Source of the DNA: Vallitaleaceae bacterium 9-2
Lineage (GTDB): Bacteria; Bacillota; Clostridia; Lachnospirales; Vallitaleaceae
Assembly (NCBI GenBank): GCA_038396585.1
Contig: CP121691.1
Coordinates: 1,488,001 to 1,552,000, forward strand
Reading direction: 5' to 3'
DNA: 64,000 bases
In this document: positions 11,905-24,497 of the stretch, one piece after another
Position numbering within the stretch: the stretch's first letter is position 1
Layout of the letters: each line of letters opens with the position of its first letter
Notes under the pieces: model-generated
What the model was told of the DNA's origin: nothing
What the model saw: the letters and a program-made list of their open reading frames with translations, nothing else
Databases searched by the model: none
Position numbers and translations under genes: made by a program

Positions 11905-13380
11905 ATGAAACTAAAAGGATTGCTAGAAGGACAAAAATATAGAGTTATACAAGGCGATATTAATTGCAATGTCAAAGGAATACAAAATGATTCAAGAAAA
12001 ATTGAAAAGGGATTTGTCTTTGTTGCTATAAAAGGATTTGAGCAAGATGGGCATGTCTATATTGGCCAAAGCATTATAAATGGTGCGAGTGCAATCGTAT
12101 TAGAAGATGTATCACTCTATGATGGAGAGATTGCCCAGGAAGTGACAGTGGTGCAAGTTGATAATGCACGAAAAGTACTATCATCAATGGCAACGCATTT
12201 TTTTAATCATCCCTCATCACAATTTAAGTTATGTGGTGTTACAGGAACAAACGGCAAGACGTCAACCGTATTTTTGATTAATAATATATTGGAATATATT
12301 GGAAGAAAAACAGGGTTGATTGGTACGATATTGAACAAAATAGGTAATGAAAGTTTTGAAACGGAACGTACGACGCCGGAATCCATAGAAGTAAAACGGT
12401 TATTTAAGCAGATGGCGGATGCAAATGTTCAAGATGTAATTATGGAGGTGTCCTCCCACGCGCTTGACTTATATCGTGTGGCGTATACACAGTTTGATGT
12501 GGCGGTTTTTACGAATTTGACATTAGACCACTTGGACTATCATAAGACAATGGAAAATTATCGCGATGCAAAAATGAAGCTTTTTACTATGGCTAAAACC
12601 GGTGTCATCAATATTGATGATGAGGCGGGACGCTATATTTTGAAGCATTCAACATGTTCGCAGCATATCACATATAGTATACTAGATCCTAGTGCTGTCT
12701 TATATGCTTCCAATATCAAGAATCATCTATCTGGAGTAGAATTCATATTAAACTATAATCAAAAAATATATCCGGTGAACTTGCAGACACCTGGAGACTT
12801 TAGTGTCTATAATGGATTGGCTGCCATTGGTGCTGCCTTGAGCTTGGGTGTCCAAATAGAAGAGATTCTTAATGCGTTGGCGCAAAATAGTCGTATAAAA
12901 GGTCGGTTTGAAACCATCGAATCTCCAAAGGGATATAATGCAATTGTAGATTATGCACATGCACCGGATGGTCTTGAGAATGTACTAAAATCCATGAAAG
13001 GATTTGCTCCTAAGCGGGTTATTACAGTGTTTGGGTGTGGAGGCGATAGAGACAGGTCAAAGCGTCCGATTATGGGAGAAATTGGAGGACGATATTCGGA
13101 TTATTGTATTATAACATCGGATAATCCAAGAACAGAAGATCCGGAATGCATTCTTGACGAAGTTGAGGAGGGTATATCAAAGACAACGTGTCCGTATCTA
13201 AGAATTGTTGACCGAAGAGCAGCTATCCAGAAGGCGCTTTCTATTGCAGAGCCCAAGGATTTGATATTGGTTGCAGGAAAAGGTCATGAAGATTATCAAA
13301 TCATTGGCAAAGAAAAAATTCATTTTGACGATGCAGAAGAAATAAAAAAATATATCAAGGAGAATGAAGATGTCAACTAA
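11905..13380 (+). CDS. murE: UDP-MurNAc-L-Ala-D-Glu:meso-DAP ligase MurE
   Basis: MurE adds the third residue of the peptidoglycan stem peptide in the cytoplasm, using ATP. The P-loop GTNGKTS is at residues 114-120. The DNPR motif at 406-409 is the recognised signature of meso-diaminopimelate-specific enzymes, as opposed to lysine-adding ones. Length (491 aa) is normal. The gene starts eight bases after the PBP stop with AGGAGG, and its end overlaps mraY. In this cluster the usual neighbours murF and murD are absent. Confidence 0.96.
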   Translation: MKLKGLLEGQKYRVIQGDINCNVKGIQNDSRKIEKGFVFVAIKGFEQDGHVYIGQSIINGASAIVLEDVSLYDGEIAQEVTVVQVDNARKVLSSMATHFFNHPSSQFKLCGVTGTNGKTSTVFLINNILEYIGRKTGLIGTILNKIGNESFETERTTPESIEVKRLFKQMADANVQDVIMEVSSHALDLYRVAYTQFDVAVFTNLTLDHLDYHKTMENYRDAKMKLFTMAKTGVINIDDEAGRYILKHSTCSQHITYSILDPSAVLYASNIKNHLSGVEFILNYNQKIYPVNLQTPGDFSVYNGLAAIGAALSLGVQIEEILNALAQNSRIKGRFETIESPKGYNAIVDYAHAPDGLENVLKSMKGFAPKRVITVFGCGGDRDRSKRPIMGEIGGRYSDYCIITSDNPRTEDPECILDEVEEGISKTTCPYLRIVDRRAAIQKALSIAEPKDLILVAGKGHEDYQIIGKEKIHFDDAEEIKKYIKENEDVN

Positions 13381-20578: not shown

Positions 20579-22099
20579 ATGTATTGTAAAATTTTTTGTG
20601 GAACACTATTAGGAATTAAAGGGATGCTTATTGATGTTGAAGTTGATATTTCAGAAGGTTTTCCCAAATTAGATATCGTCGGAATGCCGGGCAGTGTTAT
20701 CAAAGAGGCAAAAGAGCGAGTAAGAACAGGAATAAAAAACTCGGGATATACATTTCCGTATAAACGAATAACGATTAATCTAGCTCCGGCGCATATTCGT
20801 AAAGAGGGTGTGGGATTTGATTTGGCCATTGCTGTAGGCATTTTATGCTGTGAGCGTATTATTCCTGTTGCACATCTTAATCAAACGATTGTATTAGGAG
20901 AGTTAGCCCTTAATGGAGAGATTCGACCTATAAAAGGAATTGTCTCTTTACTTGACGAAGCAAAGAATGAAGGAATAAAACGTTGTATTATTCCAAAAGG
21001 AAATATACATGAAGCGATGCTGATTAAAGATCTAGAGATTATAGGCGTCGATGATTTGCAAGAAGTGGTGGCTTGCATTAAATCGAATTATCTAGAGCAT
21101 CAACAGGTAATCCATAGTAGCTTATTAGAGAGCTTAGATGGGGGCGCAGAGCCATTAGAAGACTTTTCTCAAGTTATTGGCCAAGAGCATGCAAAAAGAG
21201 GGTTAGAGATAGCTGTGAGTGGAATGCATCATGCAATGCTAAAAGGTCCGCCGGGAATCGGTAAGACCATGCTGGCAAAACGGGTTAAAACTATTTTGCC
21301 TCCTTTGTCAGATAAAGAAATCATAGATTTAACCAAAATATATTCAGCTGCAGAAAAATTATTAAACAATAGACAGATTATTTATGGACGCCCATTTAGA
21401 GATCCCCATCATTCGATTACACGAGCAAGTTTTATTGGTGGAGGTTCATTGGCAAAACCGGGAGAAATTAGTCTTGCACATAAAGGGGTGCTCATGCTGG
21501 ATGAATTTCCTGAATTTCGTAAAGATGTCATTGAGTCGTTGAGAGAGCCTTTGGAACAAGGCTATATTTTGCTGTCAAGAAATCACCATGTTTTTTCTTT
21601 TCCAGCAGATTTTATACTTATAGCGGCTATGAACCCATGTCCTTGCGGATATTATCCACATACAGACAAGTGTCAATGCCTACCTTCGCAAATTGAAAAA
21701 TATCATACAAAAATAAGTGGAGCCATTATAGATCGAATTGATTTGCATATTGAGATGATGCCTATGAAATATCAGCAACTAAAAGAACATCAAAGTGGTG
21801 AATGTTCAAAGAAGATTTTGGAGCGCGTCAAGCAAGTCCATTCCATTCAATCTAAACGCTATAAAAATGAAGAGTTTATTTTCAATGCCAATATTCCCGT
21901 AGACAAGATTCCGGTATATTGTCAATTATCCTCTGTGGCCGATGAACTATTAAGAGAAGTCTATAGGACTTTAAATCTAAGTTCCCGCTCATATCATCGT
22001 CTATTAAAAGTTGCAAGAACGATTGCAGATATGGACAACAGTGAATATATACATGACCAGCATATTGCCGAAGCCATTTTGTTTAAGCAAGATGCTTGA
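20579..22099 (+). CDS. comM: YifB/ComM-family Mg-chelatase-like AAA+ ATPase
   Basis: ComM is a hexameric helicase that promotes branch migration during natural transformation. The 506-aa protein has an N-terminal Lon-protease-like domain beginning MYCKIFCGTLLGIKG, the Walker A GPPGIGKTML near residue 224, and a C-terminal Mg-chelatase domain with a MNPCPCGYY zinc-type cysteine motif. I chose ATG 20579 after AGGAGG; an upstream in-frame start would overlap the promoter. dprA lies a few genes downstream, so both recombination-linked proteins are near each other. Confidence 0.93.
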   Translation: MYCKIFCGTLLGIKGMLIDVEVDISEGFPKLDIVGMPGSVIKEAKERVRTGIKNSGYTFPYKRITINLAPAHIRKEGVGFDLAIAVGILCCERIIPVAHLNQTIVLGELALNGEIRPIKGIVSLLDEAKNEGIKRCIIPKGNIHEAMLIKDLEIIGVDDLQEVVACIKSNYLEHQQVIHSSLLESLDGGAEPLEDFSQVIGQEHAKRGLEIAVSGMHHAMLKGPPGIGKTMLAKRVKTILPPLSDKEIIDLTKIYSAAEKLLNNRQIIYGRPFRDPHHSITRASFIGGGSLAKPGEISLAHKGVLMLDEFPEFRKDVIESLREPLEQGYILLSRNHHVFSFPADFILIAAMNPCPCGYYPHTDKCQCLPSQIEKYHTKISGAIIDRIDLHIEMMPMKYQQLKEHQSGECSKKILERVKQVHSIQSKRYKNEEFIFNANIPVDKIPVYCQLSSVADELLREVYRTLNLSSRSYHRLLKVARTIADMDNSEYIHDQHIAEAILFKQDA

Positions 22100-22124
22100 T
22101 AAATCTAAGGATTATCGTTATAAT
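22096..22124 (+). promoter_or_regulatory. Sigma-A promoter of the alr-femX genes
   Basis: TTGATA (22096-22101), overlapping the comM stop, is separated by 17 bp from a perfect TATAAT (22119-22124), about 36 bp before the racemase start. Confidence 0.8.
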
Positions 22125-22159: not shown

Positions 22160-23296
22160 ATGCATCCGATTATAGAGGTGGATCAGAAAAAACTCATTGA
22201 GAATCTTGCAAAGGTTCAACGCATTATTCAAGAAAATGTAAAAATTATGGCGATTATCAAAAGTAATGCCTATGGTCATGGGATGTTGGAAATTGCAAAG
22301 GCCCTATCCTTTCAAGTGGATTCTTTTGGGGTAGGATTTTTTCATGAGGCTTTATTACTCAGACAACACGGGATTATACAGGAAATTCTTGTACTAGGAC
22401 CTTCTTATGATTTTGAATTAGCCATTGAAAATAAAGTAACCATAACCATAGAAAGCACTGAACAGGCGATGCGTTTGTTTCAATACATAGAGGCCCAAGT
22501 AAAAGGGACGAAAAAAAAGATTCAGATACACCTAAAAGTGGATACAGGGTTTGGACGCTTTGGGCTTGATAAAGAAGGGGTCGCCTCCTTTTTAAAGCAC
22601 TACATGATGTATAGTAATTATATTGTGATTCGAGGTGTATATTCGCATATATCCATGACAAAGAAAACAGATGCAACGTGGGTAGAGCAACAGAACAAAT
22701 GTTTTTTAGCGTTTAAAGAACAAATTCAAGCGCAAATAGACACAAAAAATATACTTTTTCATTTAGCGAATTCAGAAATCGCCATTGATTATGCACAGTT
22801 ACAATATGATATGATTCGAATTGGTAATGCGCTGTTTGGACCAGTGGGAAGTGAAAGACATATTGAATTAAAGTCTATTGCGTCAATAAAACTTCCAGTG
22901 GTAAGTGTCCATGAAAGAGGCAAGGGGCAACGCATTGGATATGGGCGACGATATCGCCTAAAAAAGGATAGTAAAATCGGCGTGGTTGAAGCAGGATTTT
23001 ATGAAGGAATTGGCATTGAAAAAAGTCCGATTGGACAATCAAGAGTGCATCAGCTGCGTTTTTTTGCACGGCGTGTCATTAAAGCATTTTTGCGAAAAGA
23101 GTATATGCTTTATCAAGGAAAAAAGCTCCCTATTATTGGTATGGTTAATATGCAGTATACAATGATTGATATTACAGGAATAGATATGAAGATAGGGGAC
23201 TTTGTAGAATATAAAAAATCACCACTATATTTTAAAGAGAATATTGAACGTCGACATATATTGGAGGAAGACAATGGAATTAGTAACAAATCTTGA
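22160..23296 (+). CDS. Divergent alanine racemase-family protein
   Basis: The fold-type III PLP racemase signature is present: the PLP lysine K34 in IIKSNAYGHG, HLKVDTGFGRFG, the SHISM histidine and DMIRIGNALFG. The second-base tyrosine is present in the IGYGRRY segment. Two features differ from standard alanine racemase. The VCMDQ motif of the substrate entrance is replaced by VNMQY, so the aspartate is glutamine. The C-terminal block usually reading LGTINYE...R.PR is missing and a short tail ending in ERRHI stands in its place. It may therefore racemise another amino acid or be a paralogue. It overlaps the FemX gene by 23 bases, so the products are probably used together. Confidence 0.8.
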   Translation: MHPIIEVDQKKLIENLAKVQRIIQENVKIMAIIKSNAYGHGMLEIAKALSFQVDSFGVGFFHEALLLRQHGIIQEILVLGPSYDFELAIENKVTITIESTEQAMRLFQYIEAQVKGTKKKIQIHLKVDTGFGRFGLDKEGVASFLKHYMMYSNYIVIRGVYSHISMTKKTDATWVEQQNKCFLAFKEQIQAQIDTKNILFHLANSEIAIDYAQLQYDMIRIGNALFGPVGSERHIELKSIASIKLPVVSVHERGKGQRIGYGRRYRLKKDSKIGVVEAGFYEGIGIEKSPIGQSRVHQLRFFARRVIKAFLRKEYMLYQGKKLPIIGMVNMQYTMIDITGIDMKIGDFVEYKKSPLYFKENIERRHILEEDNGISNKS

Positions 23297-24497
23297 TCAT
23301 CAAAGCTATAAACGCTGGAATGAAACACATCAGTATGGACAATTTTTACAGTCTGAAGAATGGGGACAGTTTAAAAGTAAAGGTGCATGGTCATATGAGC
23401 TTATAGGTCTAAAAGACCAAGGGGAGCTCGTTGCAGCTTGTATGCTGTTAAAACGTAAGCTACCTTTGATGAATGGTTACATGTATTATGCGCCTCGAGG
23501 ATTTGTGCTGGATTATTCAAACACAACGGTGATTCGAGAATTTACACAAAAAATTGCTGCCTATGCGAAGGCGAATAAAGGGATTATGGTTAAGATTGAC
23601 CCTTGTGTCATGTATAGAGAACATGACGCTGAGGGGCACCTTGTTGAGGAAGGGTTTAATCATGAGAATATTATAAAAAGCCTCTGTAATTTAGGGTATC
23701 ACCACAAAGGGGTTACCCTTGATTTTGATGGGATACAGCCAAGGTTTGTTTATAGACTCCCATTGGATAGAGACTTAGATGAATTGATGAAAAAATTTCA
23801 CCATAAGACTCGTTATAACATACGCCTTGCAGAAAAAAAGGGTGTCGAAATCTATGAGGGTTCTCGCGAAGAACTTGAAATTTTTGAAAAGATTATGCGT
23901 GTTACTGGAGAACGGGATGGATTTATTCCAAGACCTCTTGAATATTTTCAAAGTATGTATGATGTGCTCTATCCAGCCGGAAAACTAAAATTTTATATGG
24001 CAAGATATAATGTAGAAAAAGCCTTAAAAACCGTATCACAGCAACTTCAAAAAGAACAAGCAAAAGAAAAATATGATGAAAAACGCTTAGAAAAGCTCCT
24101 AAGAGAAGAAAAAGAATTGATGGAATTATCTAAGGAGCATCCAACGGGAATTATTGTTTCAGGAACAATTATGATCATTAATGGGAAAACAGCATGGTAT
24201 TTATATGGAGCCAGTGATAATGCTTTTCGAAATATCATGCCCAACTATTTAATTCAATGGAAAATGATACAAGATGCTTATAAAATAGGATGTAATATGT
24301 ATGATTTTCGTGGAATATCAGGTGATCTGAGCCCGGAAAATCCACTACATGGACTTTACCGCTTTAAAAAAGGATTTACGGGTGAGTTTGTGGAATATAT
24401 TGGAGAGTTTGATTTGATTCTACGTCCAATACGATATAAGCTATTTGAACATGGGGTACCATTGGCTAAAAAAATTATTCGTAAACTAAAAAAATAA
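23274..24497 (+). CDS. FemABX-type peptidoglycan peptidyltransferase
   Basis: Fem proteins use aminoacyl-tRNA to add amino acids to the side chain of lipid II. The 407-aa protein has two GNAT-like domains, with SEEWGQFKSKG near residue 27 and KFHHKTRYNIRLAEKKGVE near residue 180. A basic coiled-coil arm (about 255-290, Lys/Glu rich) follows, as in FemX/FemA, and then GTIMIINGKTAWYLYGASDN and YDFRGISG. I chose ATG 23274 after GGAGG; an upstream ATG at 23244 lies inside the racemase gene. Which amino acid it transfers cannot be read. Coupling to the racemase hints that the two share a substrate. Confidence 0.88.
   Translation: MELVTNLDHQSYKRWNETHQYGQFLQSEEWGQFKSKGAWSYELIGLKDQGELVAACMLLKRKLPLMNGYMYYAPRGFVLDYSNTTVIREFTQKIAAYAKANKGIMVKIDPCVMYREHDAEGHLVEEGFNHENIIKSLCNLGYHHKGVTLDFDGIQPRFVYRLPLDRDLDELMKKFHHKTRYNIRLAEKKGVEIYEGSREELEIFEKIMRVTGERDGFIPRPLEYFQSMYDVLYPAGKLKFYMARYNVEKALKTVSQQLQKEQAKEKYDEKRLEKLLREEKELMELSKEHPTGIIVSGTIMIINGKTAWYLYGASDNAFRNIMPNYLIQWKMIQDAYKIGCNMYDFRGISGDLSPENPLHGLYRFKKGFTGEFVEYIGEFDLILRPIRYKLFEHGVPLAKKIIRKLKK

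Follow-up and report, generated by a model that had tools for sequence, protein, structure and literature searches.

The locus analysed here raises the question of why, in Vallitaleaceae bacterium 9-2, a gene for an altered alanine racemase-like protein (alr2) is joined to a gene for a FemAB family transferase (femX), and what its product does there. The window, meaning the whole stretch of DNA that was analysed, is 64,000 nt long and is held by a genome that consists of a single contig of 3.81 Mb. The pairing of alr2 and its relatives with femX points to an undescribed step in cell-wall building.

The alr2 and femX genes

The genes in this part of the window are ordered ftsZ, nrdR, metC-like, cysK-like, comM, alr2, femX, dprA, topA and codY, where all names other than alr2 and femX are tentative ones based on the sequences. 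The alr2 gene (positions 22160 to 23296, forward strand) encodes a FemX-linked, Alr-like PLP protein of 378 amino acids from an ATG start codon, and femX (23274 to 24497, forward strand) encodes a FemAB family transferase of 407 amino acids, the sole FemAB match in the genome. The femX product matches the FemAB profile over its full length (330.5 bits, E = 1.7e-98, 3-402 of 406) and the structure 6snr with an E-value of 2.5e-65. The nearest named records by FemX are clostridial and Vallitaleaceae genomes, and the FemX of Clostridiales bacterium UBA4039 has 98% identity to the window protein. The longest femX frame opens at a TTG codon (23244); the ATG at 23274, which follows a Shine-Dalgarno-like GGAGGA inside alr2, yields an overlap of 23 bases read from the sequence (23274 to 23296, forward strand), as the preliminary description had stated.

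The best promoter match of the region is a sigma-70-like box, TTGATA-17-TATAAT (22096 to 22124, forward strand; 11/12, by consensus match only), which overlaps the end of comM and leaves a gap of 35 bases to the alr2 start. Across the region, 16 promoter-like sites are observed and 14.2 are expected by chance, so that it is the rank of this box that supports it. Both genes had been described as following one promoter; a candidate box is indeed present, and a single promoter common to alr2 and femX is plausible.

Alr2 and its altered C-terminal part

The Alr domains begin at residue 7 of the protein's 378. Alr2 matches PF01168 (Ala_racemase_N) with an E-value of 1.7e-48, covering the model over its length, and TIGR00492 with 205.6 bits (cut-off of 168); the latter match ends at residue 284, and the match to PF00842 (Ala_racemase_C) stops at position 90 of 127. 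An AlphaFold2 model, calculated from a 14-row alignment, has a mean pLDDT of 87.6 and is nearest to the Alr of Thermoanaerobacter tengcongensis (4y2w; Foldseek TMq of 0.79, E = 6.4e-30).

Compared to canonical Alr, the alignment contains four changes, located in the Tyr265 column, in an insert, in the CMD motif and in a C-terminal loss; residue numbers and roles are those of Geobacillus Alr. The PLP lysine, Lys34 (codon at 22259 to 22261, forward strand), sits in AIIKSNAYGHG and corresponds to Lys39 in the Geobacillus numbering. Phe280-Tyr281 (GFYEG; 22997 to 23002, forward strand) replaces Tyr265-Ala266 (GYADG), which puts Phe280 in the Tyr265 column and a tyrosine one residue later; among 14 close orthologues, the column is Phe in 13 and the following residue is Tyr in 13. 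Between GFYEG and the following strand lies a family-specific insert region (residues 286-316; 23015 to 23107, forward strand), predicted to contain a positively charged amphipathic helix (AlphaFold2 helix 295-311). Further, VNMQY (23144 to 23158, forward strand) replaces VCMDQ, converting C311-M-D313 to N-M-Q, and about 22 residues that include the INYE/Tyr354 block are missing. The losses of VCMDQ and of the usual C-terminal block had been recognized beforehand; the accompanying statement that the PLP lysine and the catalytic tyrosine are both kept is correct for the lysine and incorrect for the tyrosine. The helix-bearing insert, and the recurrence of these changes as a family, are additions to that description.

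FemX as a recurrent partner

We propose the name FAR (FemAB-associated racemase-like) for the family of which alr2 is a member. Of 59 genomes (the host and 58 relatives), 14 have a long alr2 match (at least 213 bits), and exactly these 14 have full-length FemX; two of them carry extra FemX matches elsewhere and one carries a small fragment. Each of the 14 has femX directly 3′ of alr2, overlapping it or a few bases apart, and dprA-topA-codY lies downstream of the pair in 13; at the locus of the remaining genome, G040 (L052), the pair alone was recognized. Moreover, FAR and FemX distances across 19 genomes correlate beyond MurE (partial correlation of 0.66, with 0 of 2000 permutations as high), a correlation that may come partly from two large groups.

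A draw of 398 genomes from the host's phylum was searched with a profile (A3) built from 17 FAR proteins, all of them FemX-linked members, with one row (the host's) within the 398. A match was called FAR when it reached at least position 354 of 365, counted by hand; canonical Alr among the A3 matches listed ends at about position 278-285. FAR thus defined is present in at least 129 of 398 genomes (about a third), FemAB, counted by PF02388 at 1e-30, is present in 128, and both are present together in at least 115. Among the matches listed, 13 of 128 FemAB genomes are without FAR and 14 of 129 FAR genomes are without FemAB at 1e-30, and the co-occurrence has a Fisher odds ratio of 162 (p = 6e-68) when genomes are treated as unrelated. 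One of those 14, G109, has a FemX that adjoins FAR according to a purpose-built FemX profile.

The two genes are adjacent, on the same strand and within 1.5 kb, in 104 of the 129 FAR genomes listed; femX comes first in 103 of these pairs and alr first in one, which is the host genome, so both gene orders exist. Among the matches listed, 11 genomes contain both genes apart from each other. In particular, FemX lies inside the 1.5 kb flanks of 26 of the 30 best FAR loci (host included); of the four loci without it, one abuts the end of its contig. At 25 loci of B-type members (B-type being the 29 best-scoring rows of the draw besides the host's own), the gap between the genes, measured with longest-frame starts, ranges from -95 to 200 bases and is within 50 bases in 22. 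A comparison of 25 FAR neighbourhoods identified a pyrG-like gene in 14 and an argS-like gene in 13, both names being provisional, as profile scans covered a minority of the neighbours. Within G379 (L160:4319-6187), a protein with PGA_cap and D-Ala-D-Ala dipeptidase domains adjoins a FAR gene without a neighbouring FemX.

A wider contig search yielded 39 FemX loci; the flanks fetched with them contain an Alr-like gene at 16 loci and no FAR at 23, for example in the Clostridium-type L089-L092, L107 and L112. FAR also lies beside FemX in Armatimonadota, an Oscillospiraceae MAG, the clostridia GPF-1 and CSMAG_119, and Marininema, with the same insert and C-terminal loss; in CSMAG_119, the pair is downstream of a class A PBP gene. 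For the phylum of the Armatimonadota carrier, a 121-genome draw contains a FAR match at 1e-80 in 32 genomes, near full length in 30, and FemX is found in the flanks of 15 of 24 fetched FAR loci, or 13 of 22 when the two genomes first found via FemX are set aside. The conserved co-occurrence and adjacency, far above chance, rule out that alr2 and femX are incidental neighbours.

Conservation across the FAR family

Conservation was calculated for 50 FAR members (14 window-type, 29 B-type and 7 others) and for 24 Armatimonadota loci, two of which duplicate rows of the first set (L241 and L242 are the proteins of L095 and L104). Lys39, Tyr43, Arg136, His166 and Arg219 are present in 50 of 50 members, and Lys39, Arg136, His166 and Arg219 also in 24 of 24 Armatimonadota loci. 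Met312 is retained in 48 of 50 members; Asp313 has become Gln in 49 of 50 and in 23 of 24 Armatimonadota loci. According to the alignment, the insert is present and the Tyr354 block absent in all 50. The insert helix is net positive in 47 of 50 and amphipathic, with group mean moments of 0.54-0.60 vs. 0.37-0.39 after shuffling (z of about 1.6-1.8). The Tyr265 column is variable, with Phe in 26 of the 50, Tyr in 13, Trp in 3, Leu in 3, Thr in 2 and His, Val and Ile in 1 each; it is Tyr in 11 of 29 B-type members and in 16 of 24 Armatimonadota loci.

The insert, the C-terminal loss and the altered motif recur together as one family. In an unrooted tree of 98 rows (96 different), whose long branches are L106, L100 and L053, one branch with a support of 100/100 separates 74 FAR rows from 24 canonical Alr/VanT rows, the latter comprising rows picked by two Alr motifs, five set earlier and two VanT. 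These sequences place alr2 in a separate, widespread and presumably old family of proteins that resemble alanine racemase. When 17 FAR members were scanned, all 17 matched TIGR00492 (at 1e-3 or better) and PF01168, 16 matched PF00842, and their profile matches included no dedicated subfamily model for FAR. Because TIGR00492 is matched by the window copy above its cut-off and by 17 of 17 members, FAR proteins are likely to be annotated as alanine racemase. Searches of open-access literature for papers that link FemX or FemAB to alanine racemase gave Staphylococcus aureus/MRSA work or nothing, and a description may exist elsewhere.

The conserved residues accommodate a reading in which FAR is a free-amino-acid racemase of altered specificity (e.g. 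serine) that feeds the FemX branch either with its product or by removing one enantiomer; we regard it as possible, on the unlikely side. The Alr fold, the retained PLP and carboxylate residues and the tight FemX linkage are consistent with such an enzyme, and the loss of Tyr354 could widen specificity, as in broad-spectrum racemases; Tyr265 persists in 13 of 50 members and in 16 of 24 Armatimonadota loci, which leaves room for a free amino acid as the substrate of racemisation. However, this L-face tyrosine is not conserved across the family, and the positively charged insert is left unexplained. Moreover, the Fem enzymes that are known draw on L-aminoacyl- or glycyl-tRNAs, so a D-amino acid would have no obvious use in the FemX branch. 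The preliminary description had suggested a dedicated supply of an amino acid for side-chain modification of peptidoglycan; the functional link to FemX and the wall is strongly supported by the separate alr and by a pairing that extends across many families and a second phylum, whereas both the remodelled entrance and the variability of Tyr265 speak against a plain racemase of free amino acids.

D-alanine supply in FAR genomes

The host genome has six PF01168 matches. A separate canonical alr with intact VCMDQ and INYE is present, supplying the second, normal alr that the preliminary description had proposed looking for, and ruling out alr2 as the only alr of the host genome. The matches also include a BhcC-like protein, a YhfX-like protein (a tentative name; NCBIfam gave this protein no match) and two weaker ones; L004 and L006 are taken, by match pattern only, to be YggS and LysA. 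The BhcC-like PLP protein (L003, at 3.33 Mb) lies beside genes that resemble those of an N-acyl-D-amino-acid deacylase and a RidA-like protein, and these genes are perhaps a D-amino-acid breakdown cluster.

Of 16 carrier genomes that were checked, chosen partly because the wider search had given one match each, 14 have a canonical Alr besides FAR. In G040 and G214, canonical Alr was not found besides FAR; G214 is 85% complete, and G040, a MAG that is 99% complete, gave no D-amino-acid aminotransferase at an E-value of 1e-3. The FAR protein of G040 (L052, L265), a clostridial genome, reads GFHDG and NAQY. In G406, G217, G188 and G242 (L217-L220, L223), open frames of 725-843 residues contain canonical Alr domains and are perhaps fusions.

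Since FAR is the only Alr found in G040 and no D-amino-acid aminotransferase accompanies it, alanine racemase activity is still possible, and the TIGR00492 score of the window protein is also that of an alanine racemase. It is nevertheless decidedly unlikely that FAR has remained a D-alanine-producing enzyme, a second Alr put with femX for co-regulation: canonical Alr is present in the host genome and in most carriers checked, the altered C-terminal part is near constant in the family, and the recurrent partner is FemX. The D-alanine of G040 could come from elsewhere. Very unlikely, too, is a FAR without a reaction of its own that serves FemX as a PLP-holding scaffold or membrane anchor, an idea favoured by the non-conserved Tyr265, the missing Tyr354 block, the amphipathic insert and the distances correlated with FemX, because Lys39, Arg136, His166 and Arg219 are needless for a mere scaffold and are invariant in 50 of 50 members and 24 of 24 Armatimonadota loci.

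Cell wall type and a proposed role

The MurE of the window (11962 to 13356, forward strand, given as the extent of the profile match) carries the DAP-type motif DNPR, in line with its earlier description as meso-DAP-specific. In 33 readable FAR genomes, with G280 left out of the count, the motif is DNPR in 32 and DNMR in G062, and hence DAP-type in all 33. On contig C12 of G041 (L127), there is a second MurE with DNPK besides the one with DNPR. For four FemAB genomes without FAR, whose MurE copies were read in part, the motifs are DDPN in G351, DNPK and DNPR in G293, and DNPR in G118 and G329. Since these groups would be expected to have a DAP-type MurE in any case, the motif mainly argues against a lysine wall; the idea that FemX is there because of an L-Lys-type wall is unsupported. 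Passages of PMC11810901 give no wall chemistry. LL-DAP-Gly walls are known from Dehalobacter. DapF is present in 114 of the 129 FAR genomes listed, compared to 319 of 398 overall; because of this presence FAR is not a DapF substitute, and replacing DapF is ruled out as its general role.

With moderate confidence, we conclude that FAR works in one pathway with FemX, distinct from ordinary Alr. We infer that its role is that of a PLP-dependent catalyst dedicated to the peptidoglycan branch, as opposed to a housekeeping alanine racemase. In particular, the invariant PLP site and the carboxylate-binding Arg favour a reaction on an amino-carboxylate; a variable residue on the L face and a rebuilt C-terminal entrance speak against plain alanine racemisation; and the FemX link, the class A PBP in one locus and the DAP-type MurE place FAR in peptidoglycan branching.

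FAR would act on an amino-acid group that is borne by a wall precursor or destined for one. The lost gate and the new positive helix next in sequence to the Tyr265 segment, taken with the membrane-bound nature of lipid II, the FemX substrate, suggest a precursor-borne substrate. On a DAP-type wall precursor, the D-end of meso-DAP is the only free alpha-amino-carboxylate, and its amine is the FemX acceptor too. FAR perhaps acts on this free D-end in the precursor, not on free alanine, and would change the D-centre of meso-DAP ahead of FemX branching. A more specific and unlikely form of the proposal, which we offer tentatively, is that FAR alters meso-DAP stereochemically (or structurally) after its incorporation in the precursor, for example by converting the D-centre to L and creating an LL-DAP-type FemX acceptor. 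If this were true, a PLP enzyme with a lipid- or nucleotide-linked muropeptide as its substrate would be a new wall-synthesis step in Clostridia-type Bacillota and Armatimonadota. If FAR really is the partner of FemX, an enzyme of branched DAP-type wall construction has gone unrecognised, and for many anaerobes the annotated supply of D-alanine, an antibiotic target, is misleading.

Comparison with known systems

FAR has the fold, the PLP lysine, Arg136, His166 and Arg219 in common with Alr (TIGR00492; PDB 4y2w and 1sft), and differs from it by the insert, the loss of the Tyr354 block, the change of D313 to Q, the variable Tyr265 and the FemX linkage. The VanT serine/alanine racemases share an Alr-type domain with FAR; in contrast to FAR, they have a membrane domain and an intact VCMDQ/ICMDQ, and in the tree the two VanT rows fall on the side of canonical Alr and not with FAR. 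Two Vallitalea-group genomes, G014 (L073:4305-9647) and G019 (L074:4651-9979), have a second FemX beside a VanT-like gene at the end of a vanG-type cluster. A profile scan of L074 identified a VanG D-Ala-D-Ser ligase and a VanT catalytic domain over their cut-offs and a VanXY-like protein below its cut-off; the cluster of L073 looks like that of L074, the one scanned. The FemX at the end of the vanG-type cluster resembles VanK of actinomycete van clusters, and such a cluster suggests that the native FemX requires a precursor ending in D-Ala-D-Ala.

Similar to FAR, Bsr and lysine racemase (4dyj, 4beu and 4dza) combine an Alr fold with an altered substrate range; their sequence match to Alr2 is weaker (5e-20 at best, compared to 3.3e-36 for Alr), and they are not known to be linked to FemX. 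The window femX product is, by its sequence, a member of the FemX/FemAB lipid II aminoacyltransferases (6snr, 1lrz and 4ii9). Known Fem bridges are built on L-Lys or LL-DAP, whereas the MurE that accompanies the present pair is DAP-type.
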